This document shows, piece after piece, positions 40,548 through 62,620 of a stretch of DNA of 64,000 bases (position 1 is its first letter; every line of letters starts with the position of its first letter). The stretch covers positions 1 to 64,000 of the forward strand of contig NZ_JAIBES010000045.1 in assembly GCF_019459305.1 (NCBI RefSeq), read 5' to 3'. Below the pieces are notes generated by a model. The model was not told the origin of the DNA. It saw only the letters and a program-made list of their open reading frames with translations, and made no database searches. The position numbers and the translations under genes are program-made. The DNA comes from Sphingopyxis sp. Its GTDB lineage: Bacteria; Pseudomonadota; Alphaproteobacteria; Sphingomonadales; Sphingomonadaceae.

Positions 40548-41099
40548 TTAGAACGATCTGGGCTCAGCCGATCTGGCTTGTCGCACCCAGCATCTGCCAT
40601 TTAGTAAAATGTTCGACACAAGCACCCGCTCAAGGTCGAACTCGGCGCGGTCATTGACATTTTTCGAGATCGGATAGGTCGTATAGTCGAGTTCCATTGC
40701 AAGAAAGGGTTCCATGATCTCGTGGTAGTGCCGCACGTTCCGCGCCAATATCCGCATCACATAATCGACCGCTCCGGACACTGCGTCACACGCGACAATG
40801 TTCATGCTCCTGCTCACAATAGCTTCAAACTGCCCGGACTTATGCGGCGTAATATCCTTGATGCTGACCATGACGACGAACTGGCTGAGATTGCCTAGCC
40901 GCTCCAGGTCCAGATCGGCGTGATAACCGCGGATGAACCCGGCGGCCTCCAGTCTCTCGATTCGCATGGCGCATGGGGTCGGCGACAATCCGACCGCATC
41001 TGCAAGATTGATCTTGCTGGTCCGCCCGTCCGCTCTCAGCGTGGCGAGAATTTCGAGGTCGATCCGGTCGAGCGATGGCGGGCCGCTGTTTCCCATCAT
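40548..41099 (-). CDS. Lrp/AsnC-family regulator 1
   Basis: A 183-residue Lrp/AsnC regulator: N-terminal winged helix-turn-helix (about 10-60, AVGLSPTPCAMRIERLEAAG) and a C-terminal ligand-binding RAM domain (about 70-150). A C-terminal tail of about 25 residues is longer than usual. Its ATG overlaps the deacylase stop (ATGA), so it is the last gene of the dgcN-dgcA-deacylase operon, the usual place for a substrate-sensing regulator. It is clearly paralogous to the Lrp at 45073. Confidence 0.92.
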   Translation of the reverse strand: MMGNSGPPSLDRIDLEILATLRADGRTSKINLADAVGLSPTPCAMRIERLEAAGFIRGYHADLDLERLGNLSQFVVMVSIKDITPHKSGQFEAIVSRSMNIVACDAVSGAVDYVMRILARNVRHYHEIMEPFLAMELDYTTYPISKNVNDRAEFDLERVLVSNILLNGRCWVRQARSAEPRSF

Positions 41100-42784
41100 C
41101 CTTCGCACCCATGGCGCAGCACCATTCCCGAGCGCGCGCCGGTGTGCCGCCCCTTTTCCAGTGTCAGCACGCCGTTCACGATCACCTCGTCGACGCCTGA
41201 CGCGGGCCGTGTCGGCACCGTCCAGTTCGCATGATCCTGAACCTCCTTTGCGTCGAAGACGATCACGTCGGCGCGCAGCCCCTCGCGTAAGACACCCCGA
41301 TCCGTAAGCCCCAAGCGCTGTGCGGGCCAGGACGTCATCTTGCGGACAGCATCCTCCAACGACAATATTTTGCGGCTGCGGACATATTCGGCGAGCACGC
41401 GCGCGAAGGTACCGTAGGACCGGGGATGCGGCAGCCCCATGCCATCGAGCTCACCCAATGCCTCGGTCGCCGCCGCGTCGCTGCCGATGCTGACCCAAGG
41501 CTGCCGGATAACGGCTTCAATATCGCGTTCATCCATAACGAAATAGAGGGCGAAGGCGCGGTTGGGGAACGCGTCGAGCATGATATCCCACGCCGCATCC
41601 GCCGGATGCTTGTGCAGCGCGGCGCCGATCTCGACGAAATTCTGGCCATGAAACCGCACGTTGTCGTCATGGTATGAATTAGCCAGGACGATGTTCTGCC
41701 AGCCGCCCGCGGCCTCGACCATGCTCGACCATCCCGGTACCGATCCGGCAGCGGCGTCGAGCTTTAGCTGCACCCGCAGCGCGGGGTCGCGAAGCTTCGC
41801 GACGCCGGCATCGAACCCTTGGGCAAAGACGTGCCCCGGCACGGTGCCCTCTAACCCCGTGCCCGCGGCGGTGTAGGGGTAGAGATCGGCCGCAATATCA
41901 ATCCCACGTTCGCGCGCTGCCGCGATGCGCGCGATCGCCTCAGGCATCAACTTGCCCCAGCCGGGGGCATAGGCGGCCTTGAGGTGAAAAATCTCGACCT
42001 TTACGCCGCTTTCCTCGCCGATGCGGATGGCCTCGTCGATGCCGTCCAACAGACGCGCGCTTTCGTCGCGCATATGCGTTGCATAAAAGCCGCCGCAACG
42101 CGCCGCGACCTTCGCCAGCGCAATCAGGTCTTCGGTTGATTGAAAGGAATCGGGCGGGTACATCAACGCGGTGCTGACCCCGAACACCCCCGCCTTCATT
42201 GCCGTATCGACCAGCAGGCGCATCTGCTCGAGTTGGGCGGGCGTTGGCGCGCCCGCAGCGTCGCCGATCACCTGAACGCGCGCCTGCGTCGCGCTGTAAT
42301 AAGTGCCAAAATTGACTGCGATGCCGCGCGCCGCGAGGTCGTCGAAATATTGCGGTATCTCGCGCGCCGAAACGGGCGTCCCGCCTTCGCCGCCGATGAT
42401 TGTCGTCACGCCCATGCGCAGCTTATTTTCGGCCGCGCCCTGTTTCAAAAGCACGCTGCCTGACTGATCCATCATGTCGATGAAGCCAGGGGATACATAT
42501 TTTCCGGTTGCGTCGATGTCCTTTGCGCCCGTCGCAGCAATAGGTCCGATCTTGGCGATCCGGCCATCCTTGATTCCGATATCTGCGTAAACCCACGGGT
42601 TGCCGGCACCATCGAGAACGCGGCCACCCTTAATGACTATGTCGAAATCGGGCGCCGGCGCGGCGGCGAACAGCAGGGGGGCGCTGAGCGCGCCGAATAG
42701 CGCCTTTGCCCTGCGCGTGCATCGGGCAGTCGAAGGAAGCGCCCTGGACGTCAAGCGGGCCAACCCCAAAGGTCGGGCGGACAT
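41096..42784 (-). CDS. N-acyl-D-amino-acid deacylase-like amidohydrolase
   Basis: A 562-residue amidohydrolase-superfamily protein with a signal-like N-terminus (about 26-44). Blocks typical of D-aminoacylases are present: KGGRVLDGAGNPW, THMRDES (H237), EIFHLKA (H267) and SIGSDA (D436). The usual N-terminal HxH metal motif is missing: after PGFID the sequence is MMDQS, with M105 and Q107 at the His positions. E133 takes the place of the bridging cysteine. A one-metal site is likely. The start overlaps the upstream dgcA gene by 34 bases. Substrate: inferred N-acyl-D-amino acids. Confidence 0.85.
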   Translation of the reverse strand: MSARPLGLARLTSRALPSTARCTRRAKALFGALSAPLLFAAAPAPDFDIVIKGGRVLDGAGNPWVYADIGIKDGRIAKIGPIAATGAKDIDATGKYVSPGFIDMMDQSGSVLLKQGAAENKLRMGVTTIIGGEGGTPVSAREIPQYFDDLAARGIAVNFGTYYSATQARVQVIGDAAGAPTPAQLEQMRLLVDTAMKAGVFGVSTALMYPPDSFQSTEDLIALAKVAARCGGFYATHMRDESARLLDGIDEAIRIGEESGVKVEIFHLKAAYAPGWGKLMPEAIARIAAARERGIDIAADLYPYTAAGTGLEGTVPGHVFAQGFDAGVAKLRDPALRVQLKLDAAAGSVPGWSSMVEAAGGWQNIVLANSYHDDNVRFHGQNFVEIGAALHKHPADAAWDIMLDAFPNRAFALYFVMDERDIEAVIRQPWVSIGSDAAATEALGELDGMGLPHPRSYGTFARVLAEYVRSRKILSLEDAVRKMTSWPAQRLGLTDRGVLREGLRADVIVFDAKEVQDHANWTVPTRPASGVDEVIVNGVLTLEKGRHTGARSGMVLRHGCEG

Positions 42785-43749
42785 GTCGCCTGGCCGCGCG
42801 AATAAACGACTGACGGTGTGCGATCACGCGCTAGGAAAATCGGTCCGTCGAGATCGACGATATCGCAAAGCTGCCCGAGCACGAACGCCGGCGCCATGGC
42901 CAGGCTCGATCCGACCATATTGCCGACCATCACGCCAAGACCATGCAAACGCGCCGCCTTGGCCATCAAGAGCGCTTCGGTCAGACCTCCGCATTTGTCG
43001 AGCTTTATATTGACGACACCAAACCGTCCAACCAAACTGGGGATCTCGTCGAGGGTCAGCACGCTCTCGTCGGCCGCGATTGGCATCGAGCATTTGAGCC
43101 CGTCAAGATCGGCCTCGCGGCCCCGGCGCGAGGGTTGTTCGAGCAGCGACACCCTTTCCTCGACCAGCACCTTGATCAACGGAATGAGGTCTCTTCTGGC
43201 GAATCCCTGATTGCCGTCGACGCCCAGCCATGCGTCAGGCCGAGCCGCGCGGATCGCGCGAACCCGCTTAACGTCGAGCGGCAGTTCTCCAGTCAGTTTG
43301 ATCTTTATGTGCGGAACGTCGGCAAAGTCGGTCGCTCTGCGCGCCATGGCTGCCGGATCGTCGGCGCTCAGGGTAAAGGTGGTCGCGAGCGGTTTCGGCG
43401 GGGCGAGACCCGCAAGTTGCCAGACCGCCTGCCCCGTCCGCTTGGCCTCCAGATCCCACATCGCGGCATCGACCGCGTTGCGCGCGCCACCCGCTGGCAT
43501 CGCGCCGCGCAGCATCTCGCGGCTCACCCCACTCCCGATCAGCGCGCGCTGCGCTTCGATCTGTGCCATCATGCGGGCCGGATCTTCGCCCAGATAATAG
43601 ACGCCCGAAGCTTCGCCGCGGCCGATGTACTCGCCGTCAGTCAAGGTCACCACGACGACGTCCTGATGGTCGAAAACATAGCCCGAAATACGAAAGGGAG
43701 CCGCGAAGGGAAAAGTCTCGACGGCAATGTCGAGGGAAATGCCGGACAT
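42751..43749 (-). CDS. dgcA: DgcA-type enolase-superfamily racemase/dipeptide epimerase
   Basis: A 332-residue muconate-lactonizing-type enolase-superfamily enzyme. The catalytic set is complete: KxK at K149/K151 (HIKIKL), metal ligands D178, E204 and D227, and the opposite lysine K249 (NIKLDKCGG). This is the layout of L-Ala-D/L-Glu epimerases and of DgcA, reported to racemise N-acetyl-D-glutamate. The DUF1611 (DgcN) gene directly upstream supports the DgcA reading. A second ATG at 43752 gives one more residue. Confidence 0.88.
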   Translation of the reverse strand: MSGISLDIAVETFPFAAPFRISGYVFDHQDVVVVTLTDGEYIGRGEASGVYYLGEDPARMMAQIEAQRALIGSGVSREMLRGAMPAGGARNAVDAAMWDLEAKRTGQAVWQLAGLAPPKPLATTFTLSADDPAAMARRATDFADVPHIKIKLTGELPLDVKRVRAIRAARPDAWLGVDGNQGFARRDLIPLIKVLVEERVSLLEQPSRRGREADLDGLKCSMPIAADESVLTLDEIPSLVGRFGVVNIKLDKCGGLTEALLMAKAARLHGLGVMVGNMVGSSLAMAPAFVLGQLCDIVDLDGPIFLARDRTPSVVYSRGQATCPPDLWGWPA

Positions 43750-43851
43750 CAATATGGTCCTTCAAAATTGGTCAGGTTGAATGGGCCAGTTGCCTGCGAG
43801 CGGCGTGCGGGCAAACGCATCGGTACGGAGCCCCCCGTACGGAAAAAGTGG

Positions 43852-44868
43852 TCATCCACGGGGAGAACCCAATATCGACGCGACCGCACTCTCCATCGAC
43901 GTCCGCATCGGGTCGAAGGCGGGTACGCCAAGCGCTTCGCTGGCGCGGTCGAGCGCCTGCGCACATGCCGCGTCGTCCAGCCGCAACGTATTCAGGCTTA
44001 CTGCACCCAGCCGCGCCGAGGGATTGGTCACGCGCGCGGCGTCGAGACACGCACCGGCGACTTCGCCGATCGAACGCGTAGGAAAATCGGGGAAGGAGTG
44101 GAAATGGTCGCGGCCGGGCTCGTGGCACAGGACCAGGACATCTGGTTGCGAGCCGTGGATCAGGCCGAGAGTGACCCCGGCAAAGGCGGGATGATAGATC
44201 GCCCCCTGCCCCTCGATCACGTCCCAATGATTTTCCGGCGCATCGGGCGAAAGCATTTCAGCAGCGCCCGCGATGAAGTCGGAAACGACTGCATCCATCG
44301 GAATGCCCGAACCCGCGATGATAATGCCCGTTTGCCCCGTTGGCCGGAAATCGACGTCAGCACCGGCGCTTCGCAGCGCCGCCGTCAGCGCGAGCGCCGT
44401 GTATTTTTTGCCGAGCGCGCAATCGGTACCAACGGTGAGCAAGCGCCTGCCCGTCCGCTTTCGGCCCGTGGCGACGGGAATATCCCGCAGCGGCACGCGA
44501 ACATCGACAAGGCGCGCGCCCGATGTTCGCGCGGTTTCGGCAAGGTGCGGAACCTCGGCGAGCAATGTGTGCATGCCGCTCACAATGTCGAGCCCTGCCT
44601 GCGCGGCGGCAAGCAACGCCGAATGCCAAGTTGCAGGAATCTGGCCGCCGATCGGTGCGACGCCGATCACGAGCGACCCAGCCCCCTGCATCGCAGCCGC
44701 TTCGGGCGCAAGATCGGGCAGACCCAGATCAACTGCATTCTCGCTGAGGCGAAACTGACCGATACAGGCGTCGCGCGACCAGTCGCGAATACCGAAGGCG
44801 GTTTTGGCTTGGAGATTTTTGGTAATGTCCCCGACGAACAGGAGATAGGGTTTGCGCAGCTCGATCAT
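43852..44868 (-). CDS. dgcN: DgcN-type DUF1611 protein, probable D-Glu N-acetyltransferase
   Basis: A 338-residue DUF1611 protein. The P-loop-like motif GTDCALGKK (147-155) and the pieces RPTGQTGIII and DVIEGQGAIYHP mark the family. DgcN has been described as D-glutamate N-acetyltransferase acting before DgcA in D-glutamate use; no other function is firmly shown for the family. The frame is open to 44925, but the ATG at 44868 follows a GAGGG ribosome site. It heads the dgcN-dgcA-deacylase-lrp operon, with a 204-base promoter region upstream. Confidence 0.85.
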   Translation of the reverse strand: MIELRKPYLLFVGDITKNLQAKTAFGIRDWSRDACIGQFRLSENAVDLGLPDLAPEAAAMQGAGSLVIGVAPIGGQIPATWHSALLAAAQAGLDIVSGMHTLLAEVPHLAETARTSGARLVDVRVPLRDIPVATGRKRTGRRLLTVGTDCALGKKYTALALTAALRSAGADVDFRPTGQTGIIIAGSGIPMDAVVSDFIAGAAEMLSPDAPENHWDVIEGQGAIYHPAFAGVTLGLIHGSQPDVLVLCHEPGRDHFHSFPDFPTRSIGEVAGACLDAARVTNPSARLGAVSLNTLRLDDAACAQALDRASEALGVPAFDPMRTSMESAVASILGSPRG

Positions 44869-45072
44869 ATCGCCCTCAACAAGAAAGTTTGGAATTGAGC
44901 GTCCACGAAGCCCGGCTTGGCACACGCTCTTGCCGCACCGCAGCTAGAATAAACCGCACAGGAATTGCGGCTGAATTGGACGGTCACAACAGCAGCTTCC
45001 TCTTGTCGCCCGCCTTTCGTGCGATACTGAAAGGTCCACCGAGGCAGGCTGGCGGTGGAGCGCGACGACGCG

Positions 45073-45582
45073 TCATATTTTTTTGGCGACGAGCGCTGTT
45101 ATCGAAACATCGTAGAGCGCCCGTACCGTCCGCGAGACCGGAAATACGATGGTGTCGAGCCCGATCGAGAGCAGCGGCTCCATAACTTCGCGGCAATGAT
45201 CGGCATCGGTCGCATAGACGCGCATCACAAAATCGACCGAGCCGAATACGGCGTCGCACTCGATTATCTGGGCAATCCCCGCGACAAGCTCCTCGAACTG
45301 CCGTGCGCGTTCGGGCGTCCATTGCTGGATGCTCACGACGACGGTGAATTGGGAGAGATTGCCGATCCGCTCGAGGTCGATATCCGCGTGATAGCCTTTG
45401 ATGAACCCAGCCGCCTCCAGCTTCGCGATGCGCGTGGAGCAGGGCGTCACCGACAGGCCGACGACGTCCGATAACTCAGCCTTTGTCATCCGCCCGTTGC
45501 GTTCGAGCGCTGCCATGATCTTGAGGTCGAGCCTGTCGACCGCGCGCGTCCGTGACATGATCGTGTCAGGTGAACCGGTCAT
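45073..45582 (-). CDS. Lrp/AsnC-family regulator 2
   Basis: A 169-residue Lrp/AsnC protein, paralogous to the one at 40548: both share GLSxTPC, KLEAAGFIKGYHAD and DLERIGNLSQF. The N-terminal HTH and C-terminal RAM domain are intact. A second ATG at 45558 (MSRTRAV) is possible. It follows the M19 dipeptidase gene by 17 bases and closes the TonB receptor-S9-M19 gene string. Its own DNA target may be the dgcN promoter region immediately downstream, which is inference. Confidence 0.92.
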   Translation of the reverse strand: MTGSPDTIMSRTRAVDRLDLKIMAALERNGRMTKAELSDVVGLSVTPCSTRIAKLEAAGFIKGYHADIDLERIGNLSQFTVVVSIQQWTPERARQFEELVAGIAQIIECDAVFGSVDFVMRVYATDADHCREVMEPLLSIGLDTIVFPVSRTVRALYDVSITALVAKKI

Positions 45583-45599
45583 GCGCGGGCCGCACGGCG

Positions 45600-46733
45600 C
45601 TAGCCGCCAAAGCTTGCCGCATAAACGCGCATCCAATTCTCGCCCATCACCTTGTCGATCTCGTCCTTGCGCCAGCCACGGCGTACCATCTCGGCGCGAA
45701 CGGCAGGAAGCTTCGAAATATCTTCAAAGCCGTTCGCATATTGGATCGGATCCTGAACATAGGTCATTTCGGCCGGAAAGGCGAAGGACTCGTCGGGGTA
45801 GATCGATGAGGTCGAACCGACCGTAAAGTCGCCGCCGATGCCGATATGATCGACGCCGACAAGCCTTTTCAGATAGTCGAGTTCGTCGACATAGCGCTGG
45901 ACATTGGCGCGCTTCAGCGGTTGCTGGCGCTTCCCGACATCCTTGCCGCTCCAGCTCATGAACGGGTCGATCGCGCTGACGCCGAACAGGCCGCCAGTCT
46001 TGGCGATCCCCTCGATGACCCGGTCGGAGGTGTTGCGCGGATTGGGGTTGAGCGCCGCGACGTTTGAATGGGTACAGACAATCGGGCGCTCAGCCATCGC
46101 GATCACGTCGAGGCTCGATTGTTCGCCCATATGCCCGCCAACATCGACCAAAATGCCAAGGTTCTGCATCTCGCCAACGACCGCGCGGCCAGCCTTCGTC
46201 AAACCAACCTTCGGGTCAAGGCAGCCGCCGGCAAAGGCATTGGTGAGGTTATAGACAAGGCCGACCACCCGCAGTCCGGTTTCGTAGAACAGCCGCATCG
46301 TGGTCCTGGGCGGTTTCGACCACCAATCGCTTTCGCCCTTCATCGCGAACAGGTCGGCTTCCTGCCAGCCGATGGTGAGCGAAATCTTGCCTTCCTGCTT
46401 CAGGCGCCGAATATCGGCGGCGCTTTTCGCAATGCCCACATCGTTCGAATGATCATCGACGAACTCGAGCAGCGCCGACATCTGAAGCAGTGTCGGCAAC
46501 ATGCTGACGCTCCAGCTGTCGACCCCGCCCTTGCGCAGCAGCGCCAGATATTCGGCGGTCGGTGCCGACGGGCTGCACCCGTCCACAACGACCGGCGTGG
46601 TGACGGGAGGTGTCGTAGCGGGCGGCGCGCCCGTTGCGGCAGACGATGTCGCCCCCGGGCCCGCTGCAGCCGCAAATACGCTGCCGCCAGCAAGTTTCAT
46701 CAGGCCGCGACGGTTCATGTCAGTCGTCATCAA
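45600..46733 (-). CDS. M19 membrane dipeptidase homologue, HxD motif lost
   Basis: A 377-residue protein of the renal dipeptidase (M19) family with a twin-arginine-like signal (NRRGLMKLAGG) and a Thr/Pro-rich linker. Conserved parts include VCTHSNVAAL and DHIGIGGDF. The first metal motif, normally HxD, reads DGCSP, so C53 and P55 stand where His and Asp should be; W-Q-E-A replaces the usual bridging Glu context. It could be a one-metal peptidase or a binding protein. It follows the S9 peptidase gene by 22 bases. Confidence 0.85.
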   Translation of the reverse strand: MMTTDMNRRGLMKLAGGSVFAAAAGPGATSSAATGAPPATTPPVTTPVVVDGCSPSAPTAEYLALLRKGGVDSWSVSMLPTLLQMSALLEFVDDHSNDVGIAKSAADIRRLKQEGKISLTIGWQEADLFAMKGESDWWSKPPRTTMRLFYETGLRVVGLVYNLTNAFAGGCLDPKVGLTKAGRAVVGEMQNLGILVDVGGHMGEQSSLDVIAMAERPIVCTHSNVAALNPNPRNTSDRVIEGIAKTGGLFGVSAIDPFMSWSGKDVGKRQQPLKRANVQRYVDELDYLKRLVGVDHIGIGGDFTVGSTSSIYPDESFAFPAEMTYVQDPIQYANGFEDISKLPAVRAEMVRRGWRKDEIDKVMGENWMRVYAASFGG

Positions 46734-46755
46734 TCAATCTCCACCAAGCCCAAGA

Positions 46756-49182
46756 CTATTTCAGCGTCTGCGCGAACGGTACAGGCGGCTCCTGCCCTTT
46801 CAAATGACGCAGAAAATATCCCGCCAGCCGCTGCGCGACATAAGGATGATAGCCGACATCGTGCGCGGCGTTGGGAACCAGCACCAGATCGAATTCCTTG
46901 CCCGCCTTGATCAGCGCGTCCGAAAGCGCGACGGTCTGGTTGAACGGCACATTCTGATCGATGTCGCCCGCTACGAGCATCAGCTTGCCCTTCAGACGGT
47001 CCGCGAGATGCAGATTGTCGACCCGCGCATAAGCGTCGCCATCGGCGCCCTTCTCTCCCGGCACACCGAAGAAGCGTTCCACCGAAATCGATGAAATCAT
47101 CGTGCGATAATCGTGCGGCCCGGCAATCGAGACCGCGGCCTTGTAGAATTCCGGGAAGAGAAACATCGCCCGCGCCGACGCATAACCGCCAAACGAAATG
47201 CCGGTAATCCCCACCCGATCAAGATCCATATAGGGACGGCTGCTTGCGGCGGCGCGGATCCCTGCGACATGATCGCCAAGCGCGATCGAGTCCTCGTCCT
47301 GCATCGGTGCCATGTGGAAATCGCGCGACCGCCGGGGCGTCCCGCGCCCGTCCTGAACGACGATGACAAAACCCAGTTCGGCCAGCGCCTGCATATAGGC
47401 CGCCCGCGCGCCCAGCGCGTCGGTAAACCCTTGCGGCGCGAACGACACCTGCGGCCCGGCATAGATTTGCTCGATCACCGGATAGCGCTTGGCCGCGACG
47501 AAATTCGTCGGTTTTATGAGGACGCCGTAGATGTCGTGCTTGCCGTCCGCGCTTTTCGCCACGATCCGTTCGGGCGGTGTCCAGCCGGTCGCCAGCAATG
47601 CGCTCACATCGGCATCAACGATCTTGGCGATCAACGTCCCGTCGGCTCCACGAACAACCGTTGTTGGCGGTCTCGCAATCGTCGAATGCGTATCGACGAA
47701 ATAGCGGCCGCTGGGCGAGAACCGTTCGACCGGTGTATCCCAATGCCCGTTAAGACCGCGCGCCGGGAAGTTCGTATAGGAATGATCGGCGTCTTCGGGC
47801 GTCAGTAGCGTCGGATTGCCGCCGTCGAGGGCGACGCGGTAGAGATGCCGGTAATAGGGATTGCGCCCCGCCTCTTTCCCGCCTGCCGTGAAATAGACGA
47901 ATCCCGCCGCTTCATCGACGCGGACGATGTCGAACACCGCCCACTCGCCTGTCGTCACGGCATTCTTCAACGCCCCTGTTGGGGCGTCGTAACGATATAG
48001 ATGGCCCCAGCCGCTGCGCTGCGACCACCACAGGATTTCGTCGCGCGCCGCCAGCAGGCGCACGTTGGGGACGTGATAGTCGAAGGGGTTGAGATTGAGA
48101 AACTGATCGGCGCGCTCTTCGAGCACCGTGCGGCTGGTCCCGTTGTCCAAATCGATCGCGACAAGCCCGAGCGCGCGCGAATCGCGGGTCGAGGTCGCAA
48201 GGTACAGCTCGCTATCCGCAATGTCCCAGCCGGGTTCGCCGACGATCGCCCAATAGGGCGCATAATCGTTGAAACCGAGCGCACCGCCATCAACCGGCAC
48301 AACACCGCCGTCCTCCAGGTCGATCAGCACCAGAGCATAAGGGATTTCCGGCGCGTCGGCGGGGGTCGGCATCGCGATCTGGTGCGCGATCGGGCGCGGT
48401 GAGTCGGGTGCGAGATATTCGACCACATATGGCGCAGTCTTCACGCCGCGACGGTCGGTACGGATGGCCAGCACATACCGCCCGTCAGGCGACCAGGTCG
48501 CACCGGCATAGGTCGGCTTGGCCTGACCGCGCCGTTCCTCGACATAGGTCGTCTTGAATGCGGTATATTGATAGGGGAATTGTGCGGTGCCATCGGTGGT
48601 TAGCGGACGCTCGGCCCCTGTCGCCATATCGCGAAGCCACAAATTGCTGTCGCGCGTGAGCAGGGCGCTCTTTCCGTCCGGCGAAACGACAATGGCGGGA
48701 TCGGAGGCAGGATCGGATCGCCCCTTACAGCTCGTGCCTGCACGGTTGCATTCGAACAATCTGCCCCCGCTGGTGAAGGAAACGCCCCGCATGTCCTGCG
48801 AATAGGTGATCGACGCGAACGGCAGCTGCTTGGGTGAGACCTCTTGGTCCAATTCCCGCGAAAGCGTCGCCGCCATCGCCTGATGATCGAACGACGGCTC
48901 GGCATCGCCCGTCGCCGCGTCCACGGTCACAAAGCGGAAACCGCCATCGAATTCGTGCCTATACCAGAAACGATCGCCGCCCGCGATCCAGTTGGGAACC
49001 GGGGCGGCGTTGCGCACGAGTTTGCGCACGTTGGCCGGATAGAAGAGTGAGGCTCGTTCGACGTCGGCGCGCGTCAGCGCTGCATCCTGTTCGGTTGCGC
49101 CGACCGGCACCACGGTCGCCCATGTTGTACCCAGAACCAACAATATTGTGACCAATGCTCGCCGAATATAGGTCTCGATCAT
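46756..49182 (-). CDS. S9 family peptidase, dipeptidyl peptidase IV-like
   Basis: An 808-residue serine peptidase with an N-terminal membrane or signal segment (about 8-25), a beta-propeller region and a C-terminal alpha/beta hydrolase domain. The triad is visible: S663 in GISFGGYAS, D742 in GDIDQNVPF and H774 in AAHDVGYH. DPP-IV relatives cut dipeptides with proline or alanine at the second position, usually in the periplasm. The frame is open to 49428, but the ATG at 49182 follows AGGAATTTCG and begins the signal. It lies 71 bases after the TonB receptor. Confidence 0.9.
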   Translation of the reverse strand: MIETYIRRALVTILLVLGTTWATVVPVGATEQDAALTRADVERASLFYPANVRKLVRNAAPVPNWIAGGDRFWYRHEFDGGFRFVTVDAATGDAEPSFDHQAMAATLSRELDQEVSPKQLPFASITYSQDMRGVSFTSGGRLFECNRAGTSCKGRSDPASDPAIVVSPDGKSALLTRDSNLWLRDMATGAERPLTTDGTAQFPYQYTAFKTTYVEERRGQAKPTYAGATWSPDGRYVLAIRTDRRGVKTAPYVVEYLAPDSPRPIAHQIAMPTPADAPEIPYALVLIDLEDGGVVPVDGGALGFNDYAPYWAIVGEPGWDIADSELYLATSTRDSRALGLVAIDLDNGTSRTVLEERADQFLNLNPFDYHVPNVRLLAARDEILWWSQRSGWGHLYRYDAPTGALKNAVTTGEWAVFDIVRVDEAAGFVYFTAGGKEAGRNPYYRHLYRVALDGGNPTLLTPEDADHSYTNFPARGLNGHWDTPVERFSPSGRYFVDTHSTIARPPTTVVRGADGTLIAKIVDADVSALLATGWTPPERIVAKSADGKHDIYGVLIKPTNFVAAKRYPVIEQIYAGPQVSFAPQGFTDALGARAAYMQALAELGFVIVVQDGRGTPRRSRDFHMAPMQDEDSIALGDHVAGIRAAASSRPYMDLDRVGITGISFGGYASARAMFLFPEFYKAAVSIAGPHDYRTMISSISVERFFGVPGEKGADGDAYARVDNLHLADRLKGKLMLVAGDIDQNVPFNQTVALSDALIKAGKEFDLVLVPNAAHDVGYHPYVAQRLAGYFLRHLKGQEPPVPFAQTLK

Positions 49183-49253
49183 CGAAATTCCTGGGCTTGG
49201 AGGTGGTGGCGGCGATCCGTTTGAAGAACGAACCGCCGCCACTTGGGACATCA

Positions 49254-52081: not shown

Positions 52082-54464
<2,383 letters not shown>

Positions 54465-54531: not shown

Positions 54532-54560
54532 ATCTTACAATACAGATGTGTATTTTGTAT
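54532..54560 (-). promoter_or_regulatory. Operator upstream of pip-POT
   Basis: AATACA-GATG-TGTATT at 54539-54554 fits the shared 16-bp pattern. On the minus strand a -10-like TAAGAT (54537-54532) stands 17 bases from a weak -35 (ATACAA), with the palindrome again in the spacer. It lies 81 bases upstream of the pip start. Confidence 0.7.
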
Positions 54561-55340: not shown

Positions 55341-55425
55341 AGTGCCTCATTGCCGGATAAATATGGGTGCGGTCAATCATTTGCCCGCCTACCGAAATTG
55401 CCGTCGATGGCTTGTTGCGAGGGGC

Positions 55426-55453
55426 TGGACATGTCAATACATAGATGTATTCC
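55426..55453. promoter_or_regulatory. Operator between tetR and MFS gene
   Basis: AATACA-TAGA-TGTATT at 55436-55451 is a perfect palindrome. On the plus strand a weak TGGACA-N16-TATTCC promoter brackets it for the MFS gene; on the minus strand TTGACA (55437-55432) overlaps it and could drive tetR. A TetR protein bound here would control both directions. Confidence 0.75.
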
Positions 55454-55507
55454 TAGCGCAGCCAGCGCAAGGCACGGCTACGCCAGCGCGCGGTCTGAAG
55501 GGAAAAG

Positions 55508-56659
55508 ATGATGGCACGCAGGTCGGATAGCCTTGCATTGATCGCAGCAGTCGTGATCGGCAATGGCATCGCGCACATCGGCACTTCGACGATGCCGTTC
55601 CAGGTCGGCGCGCTTATGGACATGGGCCTGAATGGGCGTGAAGCCGGGCTTTTCGGATTCTTCCAGATCGGCGCCCTCGCCCTGTCGATGATCCTGCTCG
55701 CCCCGTTCATTCATCGCGCCCGGTCAGTGACCGTTGCGATGGCAGGCGCGGTTTTGACGATCGGCGCGCATGTGCTGATGTACATGGTACCGGGATCCTT
55801 CACGCTGCTGCTGCTGTTCGCTGCGCTGGCCGGAACCGGCTATGGCCTGGTCTTCGCAGCGACGATTACCGGCGGTTCGACCGCGGCCAATCCCGACCGC
55901 GTCTATGCCATCGGCAATGGCGGCGCGGTCGCCTATGTCGTTGCCCTGATGTTCATCATGCCGATGGCAAGCATTTATCTCGGTACAATGGGCGCCTTTC
56001 TTGCCGTTGCGATCGCGATCCTTGTCACCATGCCGGTGATGCTCGCATTCAAGGCGCGCGCCAGCCTGCCCACGATGGATGCTGGAAGCCTGCTTCGTCA
56101 GCCGGCGGTCCTGGCGCTCATGCTGATGTGGGCAGGATATTCGCTGGGGACAGGCGCGCTGTGGAGTTTTGCCGAACGGATCGCCAAGGGGTTGGCGATT
56201 GCGCCCGAAACGACCGCGACGATCCTGTCGCTGAGCGCGCTTTGCGGCATATTGGGAACTGGCGTTGCAGCATGGTTTGGCGGCCGGTCGCCGCGCATCC
56301 TGTCGATGGTGATCGGGCTGGTTGGCACCGGCATATCCTGCCTGATGCTCGGCTTTGCGACGGGGACGGTGATGTTCGCGCTCGGCGTCCTTACCTACTG
56401 GATCTTTTACATGTACCAATATTCGGTGTTTCTGGGAGTCGCCGCGTCGATCGATCCCTCGGGCCGCACCGGGACATTGGGCGGGGGCTGCGAGCGTTTT
56501 GCGTTCGCGATCGGTGCCCCGATCGGCGGCATCGTCACGGACCTTGGTTCCTATTCGATGCTTGGTATTCTCGGCTTTCTCAGCTGCGTTCTCACCATTC
56601 CTTTATGCATGCCGCTTGTCGCGCGGCGCCTGGCCGTCACGCCCCCTGCCCCCGCCTGA
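55508..56659 (+). CDS. MFS transporter of the island
   Basis: A 383-residue inner-membrane carrier with about twelve helices. It has no drug-efflux signature that I can recognise; the loop WFGGRSPRIL sits near the middle. It starts with ATGATG after AGGGAAAAG. It is divergent from tetR, the standard layout for a regulator and the carrier of its inducer, so it may move the inducing compound, inward or outward. Substrate unknown. Confidence 0.88.
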   Translation: MMARRSDSLALIAAVVIGNGIAHIGTSTMPFQVGALMDMGLNGREAGLFGFFQIGALALSMILLAPFIHRARSVTVAMAGAVLTIGAHVLMYMVPGSFTLLLLFAALAGTGYGLVFAATITGGSTAANPDRVYAIGNGGAVAYVVALMFIMPMASIYLGTMGAFLAVAIAILVTMPVMLAFKARASLPTMDAGSLLRQPAVLALMLMWAGYSLGTGALWSFAERIAKGLAIAPETTATILSLSALCGILGTGVAAWFGGRSPRILSMVIGLVGTGISCLMLGFATGTVMFALGVLTYWIFYMYQYSVFLGVAASIDPSGRTGTLGGGCERFAFAIGAPIGGIVTDLGSYSMLGILGFLSCVLTIPLCMPLVARRLAVTPPAPA

Positions 56660-56682
56660 TCGCAAATTCTGCGATCAGGCCA

Positions 56683-56711
56683 TTGCATAAATACAGTAAT
56701 GTATTTATGCT
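56683..56711 (+). promoter_or_regulatory. Promoter with TetR-type operator, sox genes
   Basis: TTGCAT (56683-56688) and TATGCT (56706-56711) are 17 bases apart, and AATACA-GTAA-TGTATT (56690-56705) fills the spacer. The palindrome extends to 11-bp arms GCATAAATACA and their complement, 56685-56710. It lies 44 bases before the soxB GTG start. Confidence 0.8.
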
Positions 56712-56748
56712 CTCCGCAAAGGTTGTAACAAACGGGGGAGCAGCACCG

Positions 56749-57993
56749 GTGACACGATATTCAGCGTGGTCGCTCGTGCGCGCCGGTTTTGCAGGTCAGC
56801 GAACATGGGATCCCGCTTGGCGGGACGCAGCACCCCGCAAACGCTATCAAGCGATCATCATCGGCGGCGGCGGACACGGGCTGGCGACAGCCTATTATCT
56901 CGCCAGAACACATGGCATCCGCGACATTGCGGTGCTGGAGCGTGGGTGGATCGGCGGCGGCAATACGGGCCGGAACACGACCGTCATCCGCTCAAACTAT
57001 TTCTATCCCGAAAGCTCACGCTTCTATGATTTTTCGCTGACGCTCTACGAAGGGCTGTCGCGCGAGCTCAATTACAACATCATGTTTTCGCAGCGCGGGA
57101 TGTGGAGCTTTGCGCATGATCGGCATGGTGTCGAAATGCTGCGCCGTTCGGTAAACGCCATGCGTCTCAACGGCGTCGATGCCGAATATCATGAGGCCGA
57201 TGAGGTGCAGCGGCGCATTCCGGGCCTCAACCCATTACCGCGTTTTCCGATCTTTGCCGGCCTGCTCCAGCCGCGCGGCGGCACGGCGCGCCACGATGCC
57301 GTCGCCTGGGGTTATGCGCGCGCCGCGGACCGCCTGGGCGTCGACATTATCCAGAATTGCGATGTCACCGGGTTCGACATTCGCGACGGCCATATCGTCG
57401 GCGTGCAAACGACGCATGGCGACATGGCGTCCGAATGCGTCGGCATGGCGGTCGCCGGACACAGCAGCGTGATGGCCGAACGGGCGGGCTTTCGCCTGCC
57501 TATCATATCTTATGCACTACAGGCGTTTGTGTCCGAACCGCTCAAACCGGTGCTCGACACCGTCGTCCTTGCGCCGTCCACCGGCACCTACCTCAGCCAG
57601 TCGGACAAGGGCGAACTGGTGATCGGTAGCGGGCTCGACCTGTTCCCCTCCTACGCGCAACGCGGCAGCCTGCCTGTGCTTGAACATACCGCCGCGGGTC
57701 TGATCGACCTGTTCCCGCAATTCTCACGCGTTCGCCTGTTGCGGCAGTGGGCGGGCATCGTTGATGTAGTGGCGGATTCGACGCCGATCCTTGGCGAAAG
57801 CCCGGTGAAAGGCCTCTATCTCAATTGCGGCTGGGGAACCGGCGGCTTCAAGGCGATACCCGGCGGCGGCTTTTGCCTCGCCCACCACATGGCGACGGGC
57901 GAGGCGCATCCGCTTGCCGCCGCTTTCTCGCTCGATCGTTTCCGGACCGGCGCGCTGATCGACGAAGCCGCTGCATCCGGCATCGCCCATTGA
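56749..57993 (+). CDS. soxB: Sarcosine oxidase beta subunit
   Basis: A 414-residue flavoprotein subunit of heterotetrameric sarcosine oxidase; it carries the site where sarcosine (N-methylglycine) is oxidised. The FAD motif is IIIGGGGHGLATAYY (GGGGHG at about 39-44), RNTTVIRSNY is typical of SoxB, and H182 in ARHDAVAWGYARAA lies at the expected covalent FMN position. The frame is open far upstream, but the GTG at 56749 follows GGGGGAG and gives the normal SoxB start; an ATG at 56707 lies inside the operator. Confidence 0.94.
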   Translation: MTRYSAWSLVRAGFAGQRTWDPAWRDAAPRKRYQAIIIGGGGHGLATAYYLARTHGIRDIAVLERGWIGGGNTGRNTTVIRSNYFYPESSRFYDFSLTLYEGLSRELNYNIMFSQRGMWSFAHDRHGVEMLRRSVNAMRLNGVDAEYHEADEVQRRIPGLNPLPRFPIFAGLLQPRGGTARHDAVAWGYARAADRLGVDIIQNCDVTGFDIRDGHIVGVQTTHGDMASECVGMAVAGHSSVMAERAGFRLPIISYALQAFVSEPLKPVLDTVVLAPSTGTYLSQSDKGELVIGSGLDLFPSYAQRGSLPVLEHTAAGLIDLFPQFSRVRLLRQWAGIVDVVADSTPILGESPVKGLYLNCGWGTGGFKAIPGGGFCLAHHMATGEAHPLAAAFSLDRFRTGALIDEAAASGIAH

Positions 57994-58000
57994 GGTTTTC

Positions 58001-58288
58001 ATGCTGCTGATCGAATGTCCCTGGTGCGGCCCGCGCGCCGAAAGCGAATATCGCTGCGGCGGCGAGAGCCCGATCGTCCGCCCTGCTGATCCTGCCGCCA
58101 CTGACGACGCTGCGTGGGCGGACTATCTCTTCTACCGCGACAATGCGAAAGGGCTCAGCTTCGAGCGTTGGCATCATCGTTTCGGCTGCGGCCTGTGGTT
58201 CAACATCGCGCGCGACACGGCGTCGCATCGTATCCTCGCCATCTTCGGGATCACCGATCCGCGCCCCGTGCCGGAGCCGGGCGCATGA
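58001..58288 (+). CDS. soxD: Sarcosine oxidase delta subunit
   Basis: A 95-residue small subunit that binds zinc and is needed for assembly of the sarcosine oxidase complex. CPWCGPR and the later Cys and His residues (YRCGGE, WHHRFGCGLWF) fit SoxD. It lies 7 bases after soxB, and its stop overlaps the soxA start (ATGA). Confidence 0.94.
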   Translation: MLLIECPWCGPRAESEYRCGGESPIVRPADPAATDDAAWADYLFYRDNAKGLSFERWHHRFGCGLWFNIARDTASHRILAIFGITDPRPVPEPGA

Positions 58289-61218
58289 GCGGCTATCGGC
58301 TGAAACGCGGCGGCGATATTGACCGCAGCTGCCCGATCAATTTTCGGTGGGAGGGCCGCTGCTACACCGGCTTCGCCGGCGACACGCTCGCGTCTGCATT
58401 GCTGGCGTCCGGCGTCCGCATGATTGGGCGCAGCTTCAAATATCACCGCCCGCGCGGCCTGATCGCTGCCGGCCTCGACGAACCCAATTTTATCGTTCAA
58501 CTCGAACGCGGCGCAAGTACCACGCCAAATCTCAAGGCGCCTTATGTTGAGCTTTACGATGGTCTAGATGCAGCCCCCGTCAACGCATGGCCCAGCCTTC
58601 GCTTCGACCTGCTTGCGGTCAACAGCATCTTCAAACGCTTCATCCCGGCGGCATTTTATTACAAGACCTTCATGTGGCCGACCTGGCGGGTGTTCGAACC
58701 GCTGATTCGCAAGGCCGCCGGTCTGGGCGCGTCACCCAAGCTGACCGATCCCGATAGCTATGAACAGACCTCGGCGCATATCGATGTGCTGATCGTCGGC
58801 GGCGGCATCGCGGGGCTCGCGGCCGCTCAGCACGCAGCGATATCCGGGAAGTCGGTGATGCTGGTGACGGGTGGTCGGCATTGGGGCGGCCGCTTGGCCG
58901 GAACCAGCGATAGCGTAGAGGGCAAGCCCGCAGCCGTCTGGATCAAGGATATGCTGCGTACGCTATCCGCCATGCCCAATGTGGCGTTGATGACTCGCAC
59001 GCTGGCGACTGGCCATTTCGATCACGGCCTCGTCTCCTTGTGCGAGCGCCTGACTGACCATATACCGACCCATGAACGCTCAGGTCCGCGGCAGCGGTTC
59101 TGGCGGGTCCGCGCCGACGCGCTGATTCTGGCAACGGGGGCCATCGAACGACCGCTGGTGTTCCGGGGCAACGACCGTCCGGGCGTCATGCTTGCAGGGG
59201 CGGCGCGGGCCTATCTGCATCGCCATGCCGTGGTTGCGGGGCGTGAGATCGTTGTCGCAACCACCAACGACAGCGCCTGGTATGCCGCATTCGATCTGGC
59301 CGAGGCGGGAGCAACGATTATAGCGATCGTCGATACCCGGCCGTCCCCGTCCCCGGCGCTGGTCGAACGCGCCGAAGGGCTCGGCATTATGGTCCACTCC
59401 AACATGGCACCCGCCGCGGCGATAGGTCGGCGGGCAGTGCGCGCTGTGCGGATCGGGCGCGTGTCCCCTACGGGACGCATCGACAGCCCTGCACAGGCCG
59501 TGCGGTGCGACCTGCTGCTGATGTCGGGTGGATGGAACCCCGCGGTGCATCTTCATTCGCAGGGCGCCGGACGGTTGACCTTTGATCACGATCTGAACAG
59601 CTTTGTTCCCGAAGACGGGAGTCCCGGCCACCGAAGCATCGGCGGTGCGGGAGGCGACTTTGCGCGTTACAGCACCCTCGCCGCGGCACGCGAACAGGCC
59701 GTGACGCGACGTCCTGGGCCGCCCCATGCTGCGCTGTGGTCGATATCGGAATCCGATGTCCCCGACGCCGAGGCGTGGGTCGATTTCCAGAACGATGTGA
59801 CCGCAGGCGATATCGCGCTCGCCGCGCGTGAGAATTTCCGGTCGGTCGAACATCTGAAACGCTACACCACGCTTGGCATGGCTTCCGATCAAGGCAAAAC
59901 ATCGAATGTCAACGGCATCGGCATTCTCAGCACATTGCTGGCCAAACCGATGGAGGCGATCGGCACCACGAAGTTCCGTCCGCCCTACGACCCAATCCCG
60001 TTCGGGCTGTTGGCCGGTCACCGGATTGGCGACGGCCTTCGCCCCCGCCGTCAGCTCGCGCTCCATGATTGGCATGCCGGCAGAAATGCGTCGTATGAAG
60101 AATATGGCGGCTGGATGCGTCCCGCGGCCTATTTGCGGCCCGGCGAAAGTGAAGCCGATGCCGTCCGCCGCGAAGTGTTGGCCGTGCGAACCGCGGTCGG
60201 CATTTTCGAAGCCTCGCCGCTCGGCAAAATTGAAGTGAAAGGACCGGACGCCGCGGCCTTCCTCGATCTTATGTACGTGAACCGGATCAGCACGCTGAAA
60301 CCCGGTCGCTGCCGCTATGCAATTATGCTCAGCGAGAATGGTACGGTGTTCGACGATGGTGTCGTGACACGGTTGACCGACGACCATTTCCTTGTCGGAA
60401 CCACCAGCGGCCACGCCGCCACCATCACCGAGGCATTCCGAGAATGGCTGCAATGCGAATGGACGACGATGCGTGTGCTGGTGGAGGATGTCACGACCTC
60501 TTGGGCGGTCGCCAATGTCGTCGGTCCGAAGACGCGCAGCGTGCTCCACATGCTGGCGTCCGATATCGATTTTTCGGCCGACGCCTTTGCACATATGACC
60601 GCGCAGCGCGGCTATATCGGCGGCATCCCGGCCCGCGTCGCGCGCGTCAGTTTTACCGGCGAGCTTTCCTATGAGATCGCTGTACCGTGGCGGTGTGCCG
60701 GGGCGTTGTGGGAGGCGCTGATCGCGGCGGGGTCGTCGCACGGCATGGTCCCGTTCGGCGTCGAGGCGCTGATGACGATGCGGATCGAAAAGGGTTTCCT
60801 GCACATCGGGGCGGATACCGACGGCACCACGCTACCGCAGGACATCGGCTTTGGCGCGATCATGGCGAAGAAAACCCAGGATTTCGTCGGTCGCCGCTCG
60901 GCGCATCGTCCGGACGGCTTGCGCGGCGACCGGCGCAGCTTTGTCGGACTGGAGGCGACCGACAGCAATGCGGCTCCGCTCGCGATTGGAGCGCATATCC
61001 TCCCCGCCGGGACGACGCAGCCGCAGCCTAGCGAGGGCTGGGTCACGTCGAGCGCATGGTCGCCGACGCTGGGCGCGCCGCTGGCTCTCGCGATGATCGA
61101 GCGGGGTGAAAAGCGGATCGGGGAAAGTGTGCGTGTCTGGGATCTGGGCGCATGGCGCGAAGCGCGCATCACCCGCGCCTGCCGCTATGACCCGCAAGGA
61201 GCCCGGCTCGATGTCTGA
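58285..61218 (+). CDS. soxA: Sarcosine oxidase alpha subunit
   Basis: A 977-residue subunit with the SoxA order of domains: an N-terminal 2Fe-2S-like fold (GRSFKYHRPRG), an NAD-binding domain with VGGGIAGLAA (172-177 for GGGIAG), and a C-terminal GcvT-like folate-binding half (about 580-960). It passes the methyl group of sarcosine to tetrahydrofolate as 5,10-methylene-THF. The start at 58285 overlaps the soxD stop; the frame is open earlier. The long antisense frame over this gene is not coding. Confidence 0.95.
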   Translation: MSGYRLKRGGDIDRSCPINFRWEGRCYTGFAGDTLASALLASGVRMIGRSFKYHRPRGLIAAGLDEPNFIVQLERGASTTPNLKAPYVELYDGLDAAPVNAWPSLRFDLLAVNSIFKRFIPAAFYYKTFMWPTWRVFEPLIRKAAGLGASPKLTDPDSYEQTSAHIDVLIVGGGIAGLAAAQHAAISGKSVMLVTGGRHWGGRLAGTSDSVEGKPAAVWIKDMLRTLSAMPNVALMTRTLATGHFDHGLVSLCERLTDHIPTHERSGPRQRFWRVRADALILATGAIERPLVFRGNDRPGVMLAGAARAYLHRHAVVAGREIVVATTNDSAWYAAFDLAEAGATIIAIVDTRPSPSPALVERAEGLGIMVHSNMAPAAAIGRRAVRAVRIGRVSPTGRIDSPAQAVRCDLLLMSGGWNPAVHLHSQGAGRLTFDHDLNSFVPEDGSPGHRSIGGAGGDFARYSTLAAAREQAVTRRPGPPHAALWSISESDVPDAEAWVDFQNDVTAGDIALAARENFRSVEHLKRYTTLGMASDQGKTSNVNGIGILSTLLAKPMEAIGTTKFRPPYDPIPFGLLAGHRIGDGLRPRRQLALHDWHAGRNASYEEYGGWMRPAAYLRPGESEADAVRREVLAVRTAVGIFEASPLGKIEVKGPDAAAFLDLMYVNRISTLKPGRCRYAIMLSENGTVFDDGVVTRLTDDHFLVGTTSGHAATITEAFREWLQCEWTTMRVLVEDVTTSWAVANVVGPKTRSVLHMLASDIDFSADAFAHMTAQRGYIGGIPARVARVSFTGELSYEIAVPWRCAGALWEALIAAGSSHGMVPFGVEALMTMRIEKGFLHIGADTDGTTLPQDIGFGAIMAKKTQDFVGRRSAHRPDGLRGDRRSFVGLEATDSNAAPLAIGAHILPAGTTQPQPSEGWVTSSAWSPTLGAPLALAMIERGEKRIGESVRVWDLGAWREARITRACRYDPQGARLDV

Positions 61219-61735
61219 CGCCTCGCTGATGCCCGCATGGTGCCGCCACGACGCCGGTCTGGCCGTGGCGAAGGTCCAGGTCTATGGCCTCCCCGGCGCC
61301 GCGGCCCGTCTGGCCGAAGCAATCGGCGTCATCACCCCCAAGCCCAATCGCTATACCGAAGGCATCGGCATCGCACTGGCCGCGATCGCTCCCGACGAGT
61401 GGTTGCTGATCGGCCTCACGGACCAGGTCGCGGCGGCGCTCGAACGCACCGATGCGGCGCTTCGCGGGGAAACCATACTGACACTCGACATCACCCACGG
61501 ACTGGTTGCGCTCCAGCTTGAAGGCGCGGCGGGTACCGCCTGCCTTGCTGCATTCACCGCCCTCGACCTCCGCCCCGCCAGCACCCCCGTCGGAGCAGCA
61601 CTGCGCACGCGCTTTGGCGACATCGGGGTGCTCGTCGCCTGCACCGATCACGCGCCGACGTATCTGCTGCTCGCCGATCAAAGCTACACCCCCTACCTCC
61701 TGCACCTGATCAGCCAGAGCGCAAGCCTCGCCTGA
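61211..61735 (+). CDS. soxG: Sarcosine oxidase gamma subunit
   Basis: A 174-residue gamma subunit of sarcosine oxidase, a small GcvT-like fold that caps the complex. It contains PKPNRYTEG and DITHGLVALQLEG, typical of SoxG. The ATG at 61211 overlaps the soxA stop by 8 bases; the frame is open upstream but that part overlaps soxA. It completes the B-D-A-G gene order. Confidence 0.9.
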   Translation: MSDASLMPAWCRHDAGLAVAKVQVYGLPGAAARLAEAIGVITPKPNRYTEGIGIALAAIAPDEWLLIGLTDQVAAALERTDAALRGETILTLDITHGLVALQLEGAAGTACLAAFTALDLRPASTPVGAALRTRFGDIGVLVACTDHAPTYLLLADQSYTPYLLHLISQSASLA

Positions 61736-61759
61736 TCCCGAACCGACCGGACCCCCGCC

Positions 61760-62620
61760 ATGACCAAACCGAAACCTGCGCGCTGCGTGCTCCGCTTCCG
61801 CTGCCCAGATCAGCCCGGTATACTTGCCAGCGTTTCATCCTTGCTCGCTGCAAACGGCTGGGACATTCGCGAAGCCGCCATTTACGGCGACCCCGACAGC
61901 ACCATCTTTTTTGTGCGCACCGAATTGGCGAGTGAACACGCGGCGATTGCGGACCTGCCGCATCATCTTGCACCCGCCATCGAAACGCTGGGCCTCGATT
62001 GGGAGGTCCATGACATCACACAGCCGATGCCGGTCCTGATGGCGGTCTCGAAATTCAACCACTGCCTCGTTGACTTGCTCCACAAAGTCGAAATTGGCGC
62101 CCTGCCGATCCGCATCGTCGGGGTTGTTTCTAATCACGATCAGGAGCGCAAATATGTCGAATGGCACGGCATCCCGTATCATCACCTTCCCGTCGGTCGC
62201 ACCGACAAGGCGGCACAAGAGCGCCGTTTCCTAGAAATCATCCACGAAAGCGGCGCCGCGCTGACCGTGCTGGCCCGCTATATGCAGATTCTGTCAGACG
62301 AGTTCGCCGCGAGCCTCGCTGGCCGCTGCATCAACATCCACCACAGCTTCCTGCCGAGCTTCAAGGGCGCGAAACCTTATCATCAGGCGAAGGCCCGCGG
62401 CGTCAAGCTGATCGGCGCCACAGCGCACTATGTCACCGCCGATCTTGATGAAGGTCCGATCATCGAACAGGACGTGCGCCGTGTCAGCCACGCGACAACC
62501 GCGAACGAAATGGTCGCCATCGGCCGCGAGGTCGAGGCATCGGTCCTGTCCCGCGCCGTCCGCTGGCACGCCGAACATCGGATCATCGGCAATGGAAATC
62601 AGACCGTCGTTCTCGTTTGA
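61760..62620 (+). CDS. purU: Formyltetrahydrofolate deformylase
   Basis: PurU splits 10-formyl-THF to formate and THF. The 286-residue protein has an N-terminal ACT domain (about 12-85, RCPDQPGILASVSSLLA) and a formyltransferase-like domain with VSNHDQ, HHSFLPSFKGAKPYHQA and GATAHYVTADLDEGPI. Its place after soxBDAG fits disposal of one-carbon units from sarcosine and recycling of THF. A 24-base gap from soxG suggests one operon. Confidence 0.95.
   Translation: MTKPKPARCVLRFRCPDQPGILASVSSLLAANGWDIREAAIYGDPDSTIFFVRTELASEHAAIADLPHHLAPAIETLGLDWEVHDITQPMPVLMAVSKFNHCLVDLLHKVEIGALPIRIVGVVSNHDQERKYVEWHGIPYHHLPVGRTDKAAQERRFLEIIHESGAALTVLARYMQILSDEFAASLAGRCINIHHSFLPSFKGAKPYHQAKARGVKLIGATAHYVTADLDEGPIIEQDVRRVSHATTANEMVAIGREVEASVLSRAVRWHAEHRIIGNGNQTVVLV

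Follow-up and report, generated by a model that had tools for sequence, protein, structure and literature searches.

A TetR-type regulon predicted to link peptide uptake to a sarcosine oxidase-like enzyme in Sphingopyxis

Gene content of the locus

A 64,000-nucleotide stretch of a Sphingopyxis sp. genome (assembly GCF_019459305.1, contig NZ_JAIBES010000045.1; here called the window, and its genome G000) was analysed for a locus that places genes for peptide uptake and cleavage beside an operon for a heterotetrameric sarcosine oxidase (Sox). Pfam and NCBIfam profile searches of the products of the window's open reading frames, with bit scores set against the family cut-offs (Table 1), showed that, from guaA to the end of purU, the minus strand carries pip-POT, a run of TonB-dependent receptor (TBDR), DPP-IV-like peptidase (DPP4), M19, lrp, dgcN, dgcA, amidohydrolase and lrp, and tetR, and the plus strand carries an MFS-like gene and soxB-soxD-soxA-soxG-purU. 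A first-pass annotation had described one locus holding the receptor, the DPP-IV-like peptidase, an M19 homologue, a peptide importer, prolyl aminopeptidase, D-aminoacylase-like and D-glutamate genes, and sox with purU; the profile searches bear this out and add tetR, the MFS-like gene and the two lrp genes, which were missing from its list. The genes soxB, soxD, soxA and soxG form one operon, as they do for heterotetrameric Sox, with SoxD and SoxG scoring below their NCBIfam cut-offs and above those of Pfam. The MFS-like transporter may possibly carry an N-methyl amino acid.

The DPP-IV-like protein has the S9B architecture, a DPPIV_N propeller and an S9 domain with the Ser-Asp-His motifs GISFGGY (743), DIDQNV (822) and NAAHD (853), and its best PDB match is 2ecf, 'Dipeptidyl peptidase IV'. 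DPP IV binds the free N-terminus through a Glu-Glu motif, and the window protein has YVEER (Glu-Glu 297-298) near the DEE stretch of 2ecf, in a region where the alignment is gapped.

A palindrome before four transcription units

The 16-bp palindrome AATACAnnnnTGTATT occurs at exactly four sites in the genome, spanning 4.8 kb of the window, and each copy lies 5′ of one transcription unit: the receptor operon, pip-POT, the divergent tetR/MFS pair, and soxB. The earlier claim that peptide and sox genes share one operator was thus confirmed. A scan of the window allowing up to two mismatches gave no fifth match (shuffled sequences: mean 0.27, maximum 3), and a scan of the whole genome (3.97 Mb) allowing up to one mismatch returned the same four sites only, compared with two sites for a reversed control pattern. 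The tetR and MFS genes stand at the centre of this operator-bearing system, and the TetR protein, which has a TetR_N domain and a copy of the palindrome at its own promoter, is presumed to bind the four predicted operator sites. No operator was found at the D-glutamate genes, to which its control would extend only if transcription of the receptor operon continues through them.

Table 1. Genes and predicted operators of the locus, in order of position in the window
Feature	Position	Strand	Evidence and remarks
Second Lrp/AsnC regulator	40548..41108	-	PF13412
Amidohydrolase	41096..42784	-	PF07969 (Amidohydro_3); the label D-aminoacylase-like goes beyond the profile match
DgcA-like enolase-superfamily racemase/epimerase	42751..43752	-	NF042940, 366.4 bits (cut-off 400)
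DgcN-like (DUF1611)	43852..44925	-	NF041892, 439.4 bits (cut-off 480)
Lrp/AsnC regulator, ahead of the D-glutamate genes	45073..45636	-	PF13412, PF01037
M19 dipeptidase-like protein	45600..46733	-	PF01244; Tat-like RRGLMK signal (by eye)
DPP-IV-like S9 peptidase	46756..49428	-	PF00930, PF00326; signal-like N-terminus; true start probably ~49190 (by eye)
TonB-dependent outer-membrane receptor	49254..51719	-	PF00593, PF07715; true start probably ~51656 (by eye)
Operator AATACATCGATGTATT	51925..51940		~270 bp 5′ of likely receptor start
POT proton-coupled di/tripeptide symporter	52082..53482	-	TIGR00924, 215 bits (cut-off 130.2)
Prolyl aminopeptidase (S33; pip)	53475..54458	-	TIGR01249 equivalog, 379 bits (cut-off 259.75)
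Operator AATACAGATGTGTATT	54539..54554		5′ of pip-POT
TetR-family regulator, presumed repressor of four sites	54708..55340	-	PF00440; relatives adjoin other sox loci
Operator AATACATAGATGTATT	55436..55451		Between divergent tetR and MFS genes
MFS-like transporter	55508..56659	+	Weak MFS_1 match only, E 0.003, below cut-off
Operator AATACAGTAATGTATT	56690..56705		44-59 bp 5′ of likely soxB start; similar position in relatives
SoxB, 'G-type' beta subunit of heterotetrameric Sox	56749..57993	+	TIGR01373, 640 bits (cut-off 529); type from clade and pocket-strand column
SoxD	58001..58288	+	PF04267; TIGR01374, 107.6 bits (cut-off 116.5), below cut-off
SoxA with GCV_T folate domain	58285..61218	+	TIGR01372, 1207 bits (cut-off 1164); PF01571
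SoxG (weak match)	61211..61735	+	PF04268; TIGR01375, 67.9 bits (cut-off 144), well below cut-off
PurU, formyltetrahydrofolate deformylase	61760..62620	+	TIGR00655, 312 bits (cut-off 286)

The stretch 3′ of purU (62640-63000) is AT-rich and, by eye, holds no evident gene.

Conservation of the locus and recurrence of the operator core

The first-pass annotation had proposed looking for the same gene set elsewhere, and the receptor, POT, pip, tetR, MFS and sox genes together with all four sites were found in three further genomes, one Sphingopyxis (G032, locus L059) and two Sphingomonas, sp. R647 (L060) and sp. LaA6.9 (L061). DPP4, M19 and dgcN stand in the same order in all three as in the window: within the cluster in G032, directly beside the locus in R647 (M19, 85%, C1:759684-760796; dgcN, 80%, C1:758080-759090), and in LaA6.9 at positions consistent with a locus start at 18634 (M19, 84%, C76:17358-18473; dgcN, 85%, C76:15615-16619), where the DPP4 gene was located by tblastn.

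A relaxed core of the palindrome, ATACAnnnnTGTAT, was found in other sphingomonads before sox genes and before peptide gene sets of varying composition, often with proline-specific members (DPP-IV-like, prolyl oligopeptidase, S15 X-Pro dipeptidyl-peptidase), some of the neighbours being labelled by BLAST against the window genes only. Core sites in genomes G005 and G001 precede a TBDR, PhyH-DUF885, S33-M3, an SNF symporter and soxB; those of Sphingopyxis flava (G034, L069) lie in the soxB/M19 intergenic region and at a DPP4-like gene; and in G028 (and G005) they lie at purU, a TBDR and an S15 X-Pro dipeptidyl-peptidase. In G018 they lie at soxB and an S9 peptidase, and also at a TBDR if mismatches are allowed. 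The distal sites of G035 stand before genes for a prolyl oligopeptidase and a DPP-IV-like protein; in G068 a TetR gene and a DAO-family oxidoreductase flank a site, and a prolyl oligopeptidase comes next; and a Caulobacter locus (L083) has sites at tetR/soxB and M19.

Among 80 Sphingopyxis genomes, 19 carry soxB, and these hold 47 core sites (in 10 of the 19 genomes), of which 36 lie no more than 20 kb from soxB. The 61 genomes without soxB hold eight, in six genomes (Fisher p 0.0002 for 10/19 against 6/61). The reversed control pattern gave 20 sites in the former set and 52 in the latter, and so shows no contrast like that of the core. Core matches in three genomes without soxB (L149, L150, L152) and one in G001 (L147) were rejected as parts of the sox system, as they belong to a different palindrome. 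This GATACATnnnTGTATC-like palindrome, unrelated to sox, is flanked on one side by a different TetR gene accompanied by an M20-like hydrolase and on the other by a TonB receptor-like gene (labels by eye), and three of its four instances are in genomes that lack soxB.

The 19 soxB-bearing genomes (~86 Mb) contain 240 S9 and 140 M19 matches, from which 1.9 S9 and 1.1 M19 matches would be expected within ~15 kb of their 22 soxB genes. At least nine S9 (G000, G032, G034, two in G035, G018, G068, G019, G061) and at least seven M19 matches (G000, G032, G034, two in G005, G061, G010) were observed there, an excess that serves as description rather than as a test because related genomes share history.

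Two clades of SoxB

An alignment and tree of 160 SoxB sequences, including 2gag_B, was used to place the window SoxB; neighbour counts omit the window and 2gag_B, leaving 59 H-type and 99 G-type loci. The named set was collected by likeness to the window SoxB and is therefore rich in G-type sequences, and related loci in it are not independent. At one column of a pocket strand (LxPxTGxY; MSNHIHVY in 2gag_B, where it is His270 by our own count) 60 sequences have His, 99 Gly and one Ala, and a single tree edge with support 0.97 splits the His from the Gly/Ala sequences without exception. The window SoxB has Gly at this position and falls on the opposite side of the edge from the structurally known sarcosine oxidase. 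The flavin mononucleotide (FMN) His and the substrate-anchoring Arg and Lys are invariant in all 160.

The two types differ in their neighbours. Glycine-to-serine genes (SHMT or SDA) lie within 12 kb of 23/59 H-type but 1/99 G-type loci, the sole G-type case (L073) having an H-type copy adjoining, and a TetR gene is nearby at 67/99 G-type and 4/59 H-type loci. Counting just the 60 loci of the phylum sample, SHMT or SDA was found at 19/48 H-type and 0/12 G-type loci, and TetR at 2/48 and 12/12. No SHMT or SDA match was found anywhere in the window. The operator core follows the same division: with up to one mismatch it occurs within 350 bp 5′ of soxB at 33/98 G-type loci (random windows 1.4%) and 2/59 H-type loci (random windows 0.7%). 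All ten core-bearing Sphingopyxis genomes with soxB are among the 14 with G-type soxB; no core site was found in the five with H-type soxB only (G010, G022, G027, G074, G091), nor in four of the G-type genomes (G019, G061, G080, G086). Three loci (L073, L098, L131) hold both types together on one stretch of 12-21 kb, suggesting that the two act on different substrates.

For monomeric Sox, the available text of PMC12582975 describes Arg52, Tyr55 and Lys348 as holding the substrate, and a Tyr254Gly change that enlarges the site, lowers activity on sarcosine and raises activity on cyclic imino acids, proline among them. In a glycine-oxidase alignment the His/Gly column is two residues N-terminal to the conserved strand Tyr, and this Tyr probably corresponds to Tyr254.

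Four G-type loci inspected outside the sphingomonads (L097, L100, L155, L161) all have a DMGDH-like gene (DAO and GCV_T), two of them also an MttB-like gene, and a fifth, in Aminobacter (L087), has an S9 gene. The search for sources of sarcosine covered DMGDH-type enzymes, MttB and creatininase. A GCV_T search of the window's genome found soxA and one other match, an open frame of 461 aa, which being gcvT-sized leaves no DMGDH-type gene. Across the four genomes that carry the complete locus of the window type (G000, G032, G104, G105) MttB was found in none and creatininase in G105 only. From these neighbourhoods G-type Sox can be read as an enzyme that demethylates N-methyl amino acids in general, peptides being one of its sources, and for the window enzyme an N-methyl (or imino) amino acid that is not sarcosine, or is not sarcosine alone, is the likelier substrate.

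Several single loci are recorded here. G005 has four soxB genes with three distinct pocket strands (TYGAGHFY, GSAVIGSY, MSPATGAY), as if the family had diversified in substrate. Hydantoinase/caprolactamase-type A and B genes lie near TetR and sox genes at L028 (G050), L029 (G044) and L103:1621-5431, perhaps as a feeder from N-methyl lactams or hydantoins. Between the sox genes and purU, G028 encodes a protein of 909 aa that has a spermine synthase domain (L031:16097-18826), and the 370 kb region of G005 (L033) has a protein of the same length in that place.

A proposed route for N-methylated peptides

These results make it probable, on balance, that a TetR repressor and the 16-bp palindrome co-regulate one catabolic route, in which peptide uptake and cleavage would be followed by demethylation of an N-methyl residue by G-type Sox. 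The TonB receptor would import an oligopeptide across the outer membrane, the periplasmic DPP-IV-like and M19 peptidases would cleave it, and the POT symporter would take up the short products. Prolyl aminopeptidase, with general peptidases, would then liberate residues, of which the N-methylated one would be oxidatively demethylated by heterotetrameric Sox, its methyl group passing to folate and leaving as formate via PurU. This order of receptor, S9/M19, POT, prolyl aminopeptidase, Sox and PurU is what knowledge of the families suggests; the transport steps, the binding of TetR and its ligand are likewise predicted from sequence. Derivation of the Sox substrate from an imported peptide is the best reading and is well supported by comparison, now much better than at first because the operator core recurs before differently composed peptide genes as well as before sox.

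A set of observations weighs against so close a link. The tetR-sox loci of Rhizorhabdus histidinilytica (L094) and Sphingomonas Root720 (L103) have a TetR at 59% and carry the palindrome at just two places, tetR and soxB, with no peptide genes. Those of Sphingosinicella (L063-L065, L068) and a Sphingomonadaceae metagenome-assembled genome (L062), with SoxB at 87-89% and a one-mismatch site, have flagellar or other unrelated neighbours and no peptide genes were seen there. Core sites precede LuxR-type and molybdopterin genes rather than peptide genes in Solimonas L084 and an amino acid permease in Solimonas L091; the two in G085 adjoin a TetR gene and two in G001 stand at unrelated places; and TetR with an exact core site also occurs at two H-type loci, G050 and G044. 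Peptidases show a modest excess at G-type over H-type loci (22/99 vs 5/59, p 0.03) in a comparison whose peptidase panel was drawn from G-type loci, TBDRs occur at 23/99 vs 6/59 (p 0.055), and S9 genes are common in any case, as the 240 matches in 19 genomes show. Because close SoxB relatives lack peptide genes, the link of sox to peptide genes is not obligatory. Genes for proteins of 629, 306, 287 and 309 aa beside the Sphingosinicella sox genes were considered as a peptide ABC importer and rejected, since Pfam identifies them as flagellar.

Ordinary sarcosine catabolism, with a true sarcosine oxidase, a sarcosine-sensing repressor and peptides that contain sarcosine, is an unlikely competitor. 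SoxB and SoxA score above curated family cut-offs, the anchoring Arg and Lys are conserved, PurU lies within the operon, and the hydantoinase/caprolactamase-type genes at the H-type loci of G050 and G044 and the G-type locus L103 would fit a conversion of N-methylhydantoin to sarcosine. Set against this are the sister-clade position, the lost pocket-strand His, and the scarcity of glycine-to-serine genes at G-type loci and their lack in the window, where known sarcosine operons have the form glyA-soxBDAG-purU, as far as the available text of PMC3691474 describes them. The earlier proposal that sarcosine arises from the imported peptide finds support in its first half, the peptide origin, which the shared operator and the recurrence with other peptidases favour; sarcosine itself does not fare as well.

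Less likely still is a regulon that simply serves proline-rich peptides. Proline-specific peptidases abound in it, and the Tyr254Gly variant shows that opening the site of monomeric Sox can raise activity on proline (PMC12582975, available text), yet SoxA keeps its folate domain and purU stays in the operon, which fits one-carbon release, and DMGDH-like genes accompany the four G-type loci inspected outside the sphingomonads, two of which have MttB-like genes too. That two metabolically unlinked pathways came to share a repressor by operator spread is very improbable: S9 genes are abundant and Sphingosinicella has sox without peptide genes, but in several lineages the same core stands before peptide gene sets that differ in composition.

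Returning to the peptide route, a broader proposal is put forward tentatively, with the chances somewhat against it. G-type Sox would form a class of N-methyl-amino-acid oxidase in its own right, widespread and with natural substrates other than sarcosine, and its TetR regulon, in sphingomonads and some other proteobacteria, would repeatedly have recruited proline-specific peptidases and TonB receptors as a dedicated route for N-methylated peptides, with X-Pro enzymes opening N-methyl peptide bonds. Proline-specific peptidases would be natural openers of such bonds because these, like X-Pro bonds, are tertiary amides; the available parts of the review PMC10531186 contain nothing on prolyl peptidases cleaving after sarcosine.

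The D-glutamate cassette

The DgcN-like and DgcA-like proteins fall short of the NCBIfam equivalog cut-offs and are close relatives rather than certified members of those families. The D-glutamate genes follow the receptor operon in all four full-locus genomes. Three more dgcN relatives occur in the window's genome; one has an internal stop and two are close to M19 genes. The paralogues near M19 genes lie at G000:C22:81875-83916 (one internal TGA) and G000:C117:34170-42278, which suggests a common module for dipeptides with D-residues. Because a DgcN-DgcA route for D-glutamate has been published (PMC10845958, as its available text describes) and dgcN paralogues lie near M19 genes elsewhere in the genome, we regard M19-lrp-dgcN-dgcA-amidohydrolase as a cassette of a known kind that has been added to the receptor operon. 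The imported peptide may accordingly also hold a D-residue, with no natural product singled out. The actinomycin-like or cyanobacterial D-Glu peptides named as candidates in the first-pass annotation found no support. The D-glutamate genes form a separate module of a known kind, with no operator of its own and with paralogues elsewhere in the genome.

Significance and comparison with known systems

To our knowledge, the bacterial breakdown of N-methylated peptides has been little explored, and the regulon points to a little-studied way of using them. The available parts of the literature on the control of sox by TetR proteins, the degradation of N-methyl amino acids, N-methylproline demethylase, MttB in combination with sox, and the breakdown of N-methylated peptides yielded no description of a linkage of peptide uptake to sox. 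The operator provides a searchable regulon signature, the SoxB clade poses a clean two-way biochemical question, whether the substrate is sarcosine or some larger N-methyl amino acid, and genes now labelled 'sarcosine oxidase' may in many cases be misnamed.

TonB receptor and peptidase loci for peptide uptake are a general known type, which the window resembles in its TBDR, S9, M19 and POT genes (DUF885 and M3 in relatives) and from which it differs in that the same operator stands before a demethylating oxidase. With the DgcN-DgcA pathway it shares adjacent dgcN-dgcA-like genes and an Lrp-type regulator, but the scores are below cut-off and the set lies behind a receptor/peptidase operon with M19 and a D-aminoacylase-like gene. 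The glyA-soxBDAG-purU operons of Corynebacterium and Colwellia (PDB 2gag, 1x31, 3ad7) agree with the window in the gene order soxBDAG-purU, in having four subunits and a folate domain, and in the FMN His and the Arg and Lys that anchor the substrate, whereas the window enzyme belongs to the sister clade with Gly in place of His270 of 2gag_B, has no glyA or sda found in the window, and is tied to peptide uptake through a TetR with a palindromic operator. The betaine demethylation clusters of alphaproteobacteria, with MttB-like and DMGDH-like enzymes, share the G-type SoxB and usually a related TetR nearby, but are presumably fed by a quaternary or dimethyl amine rather than by a peptide.

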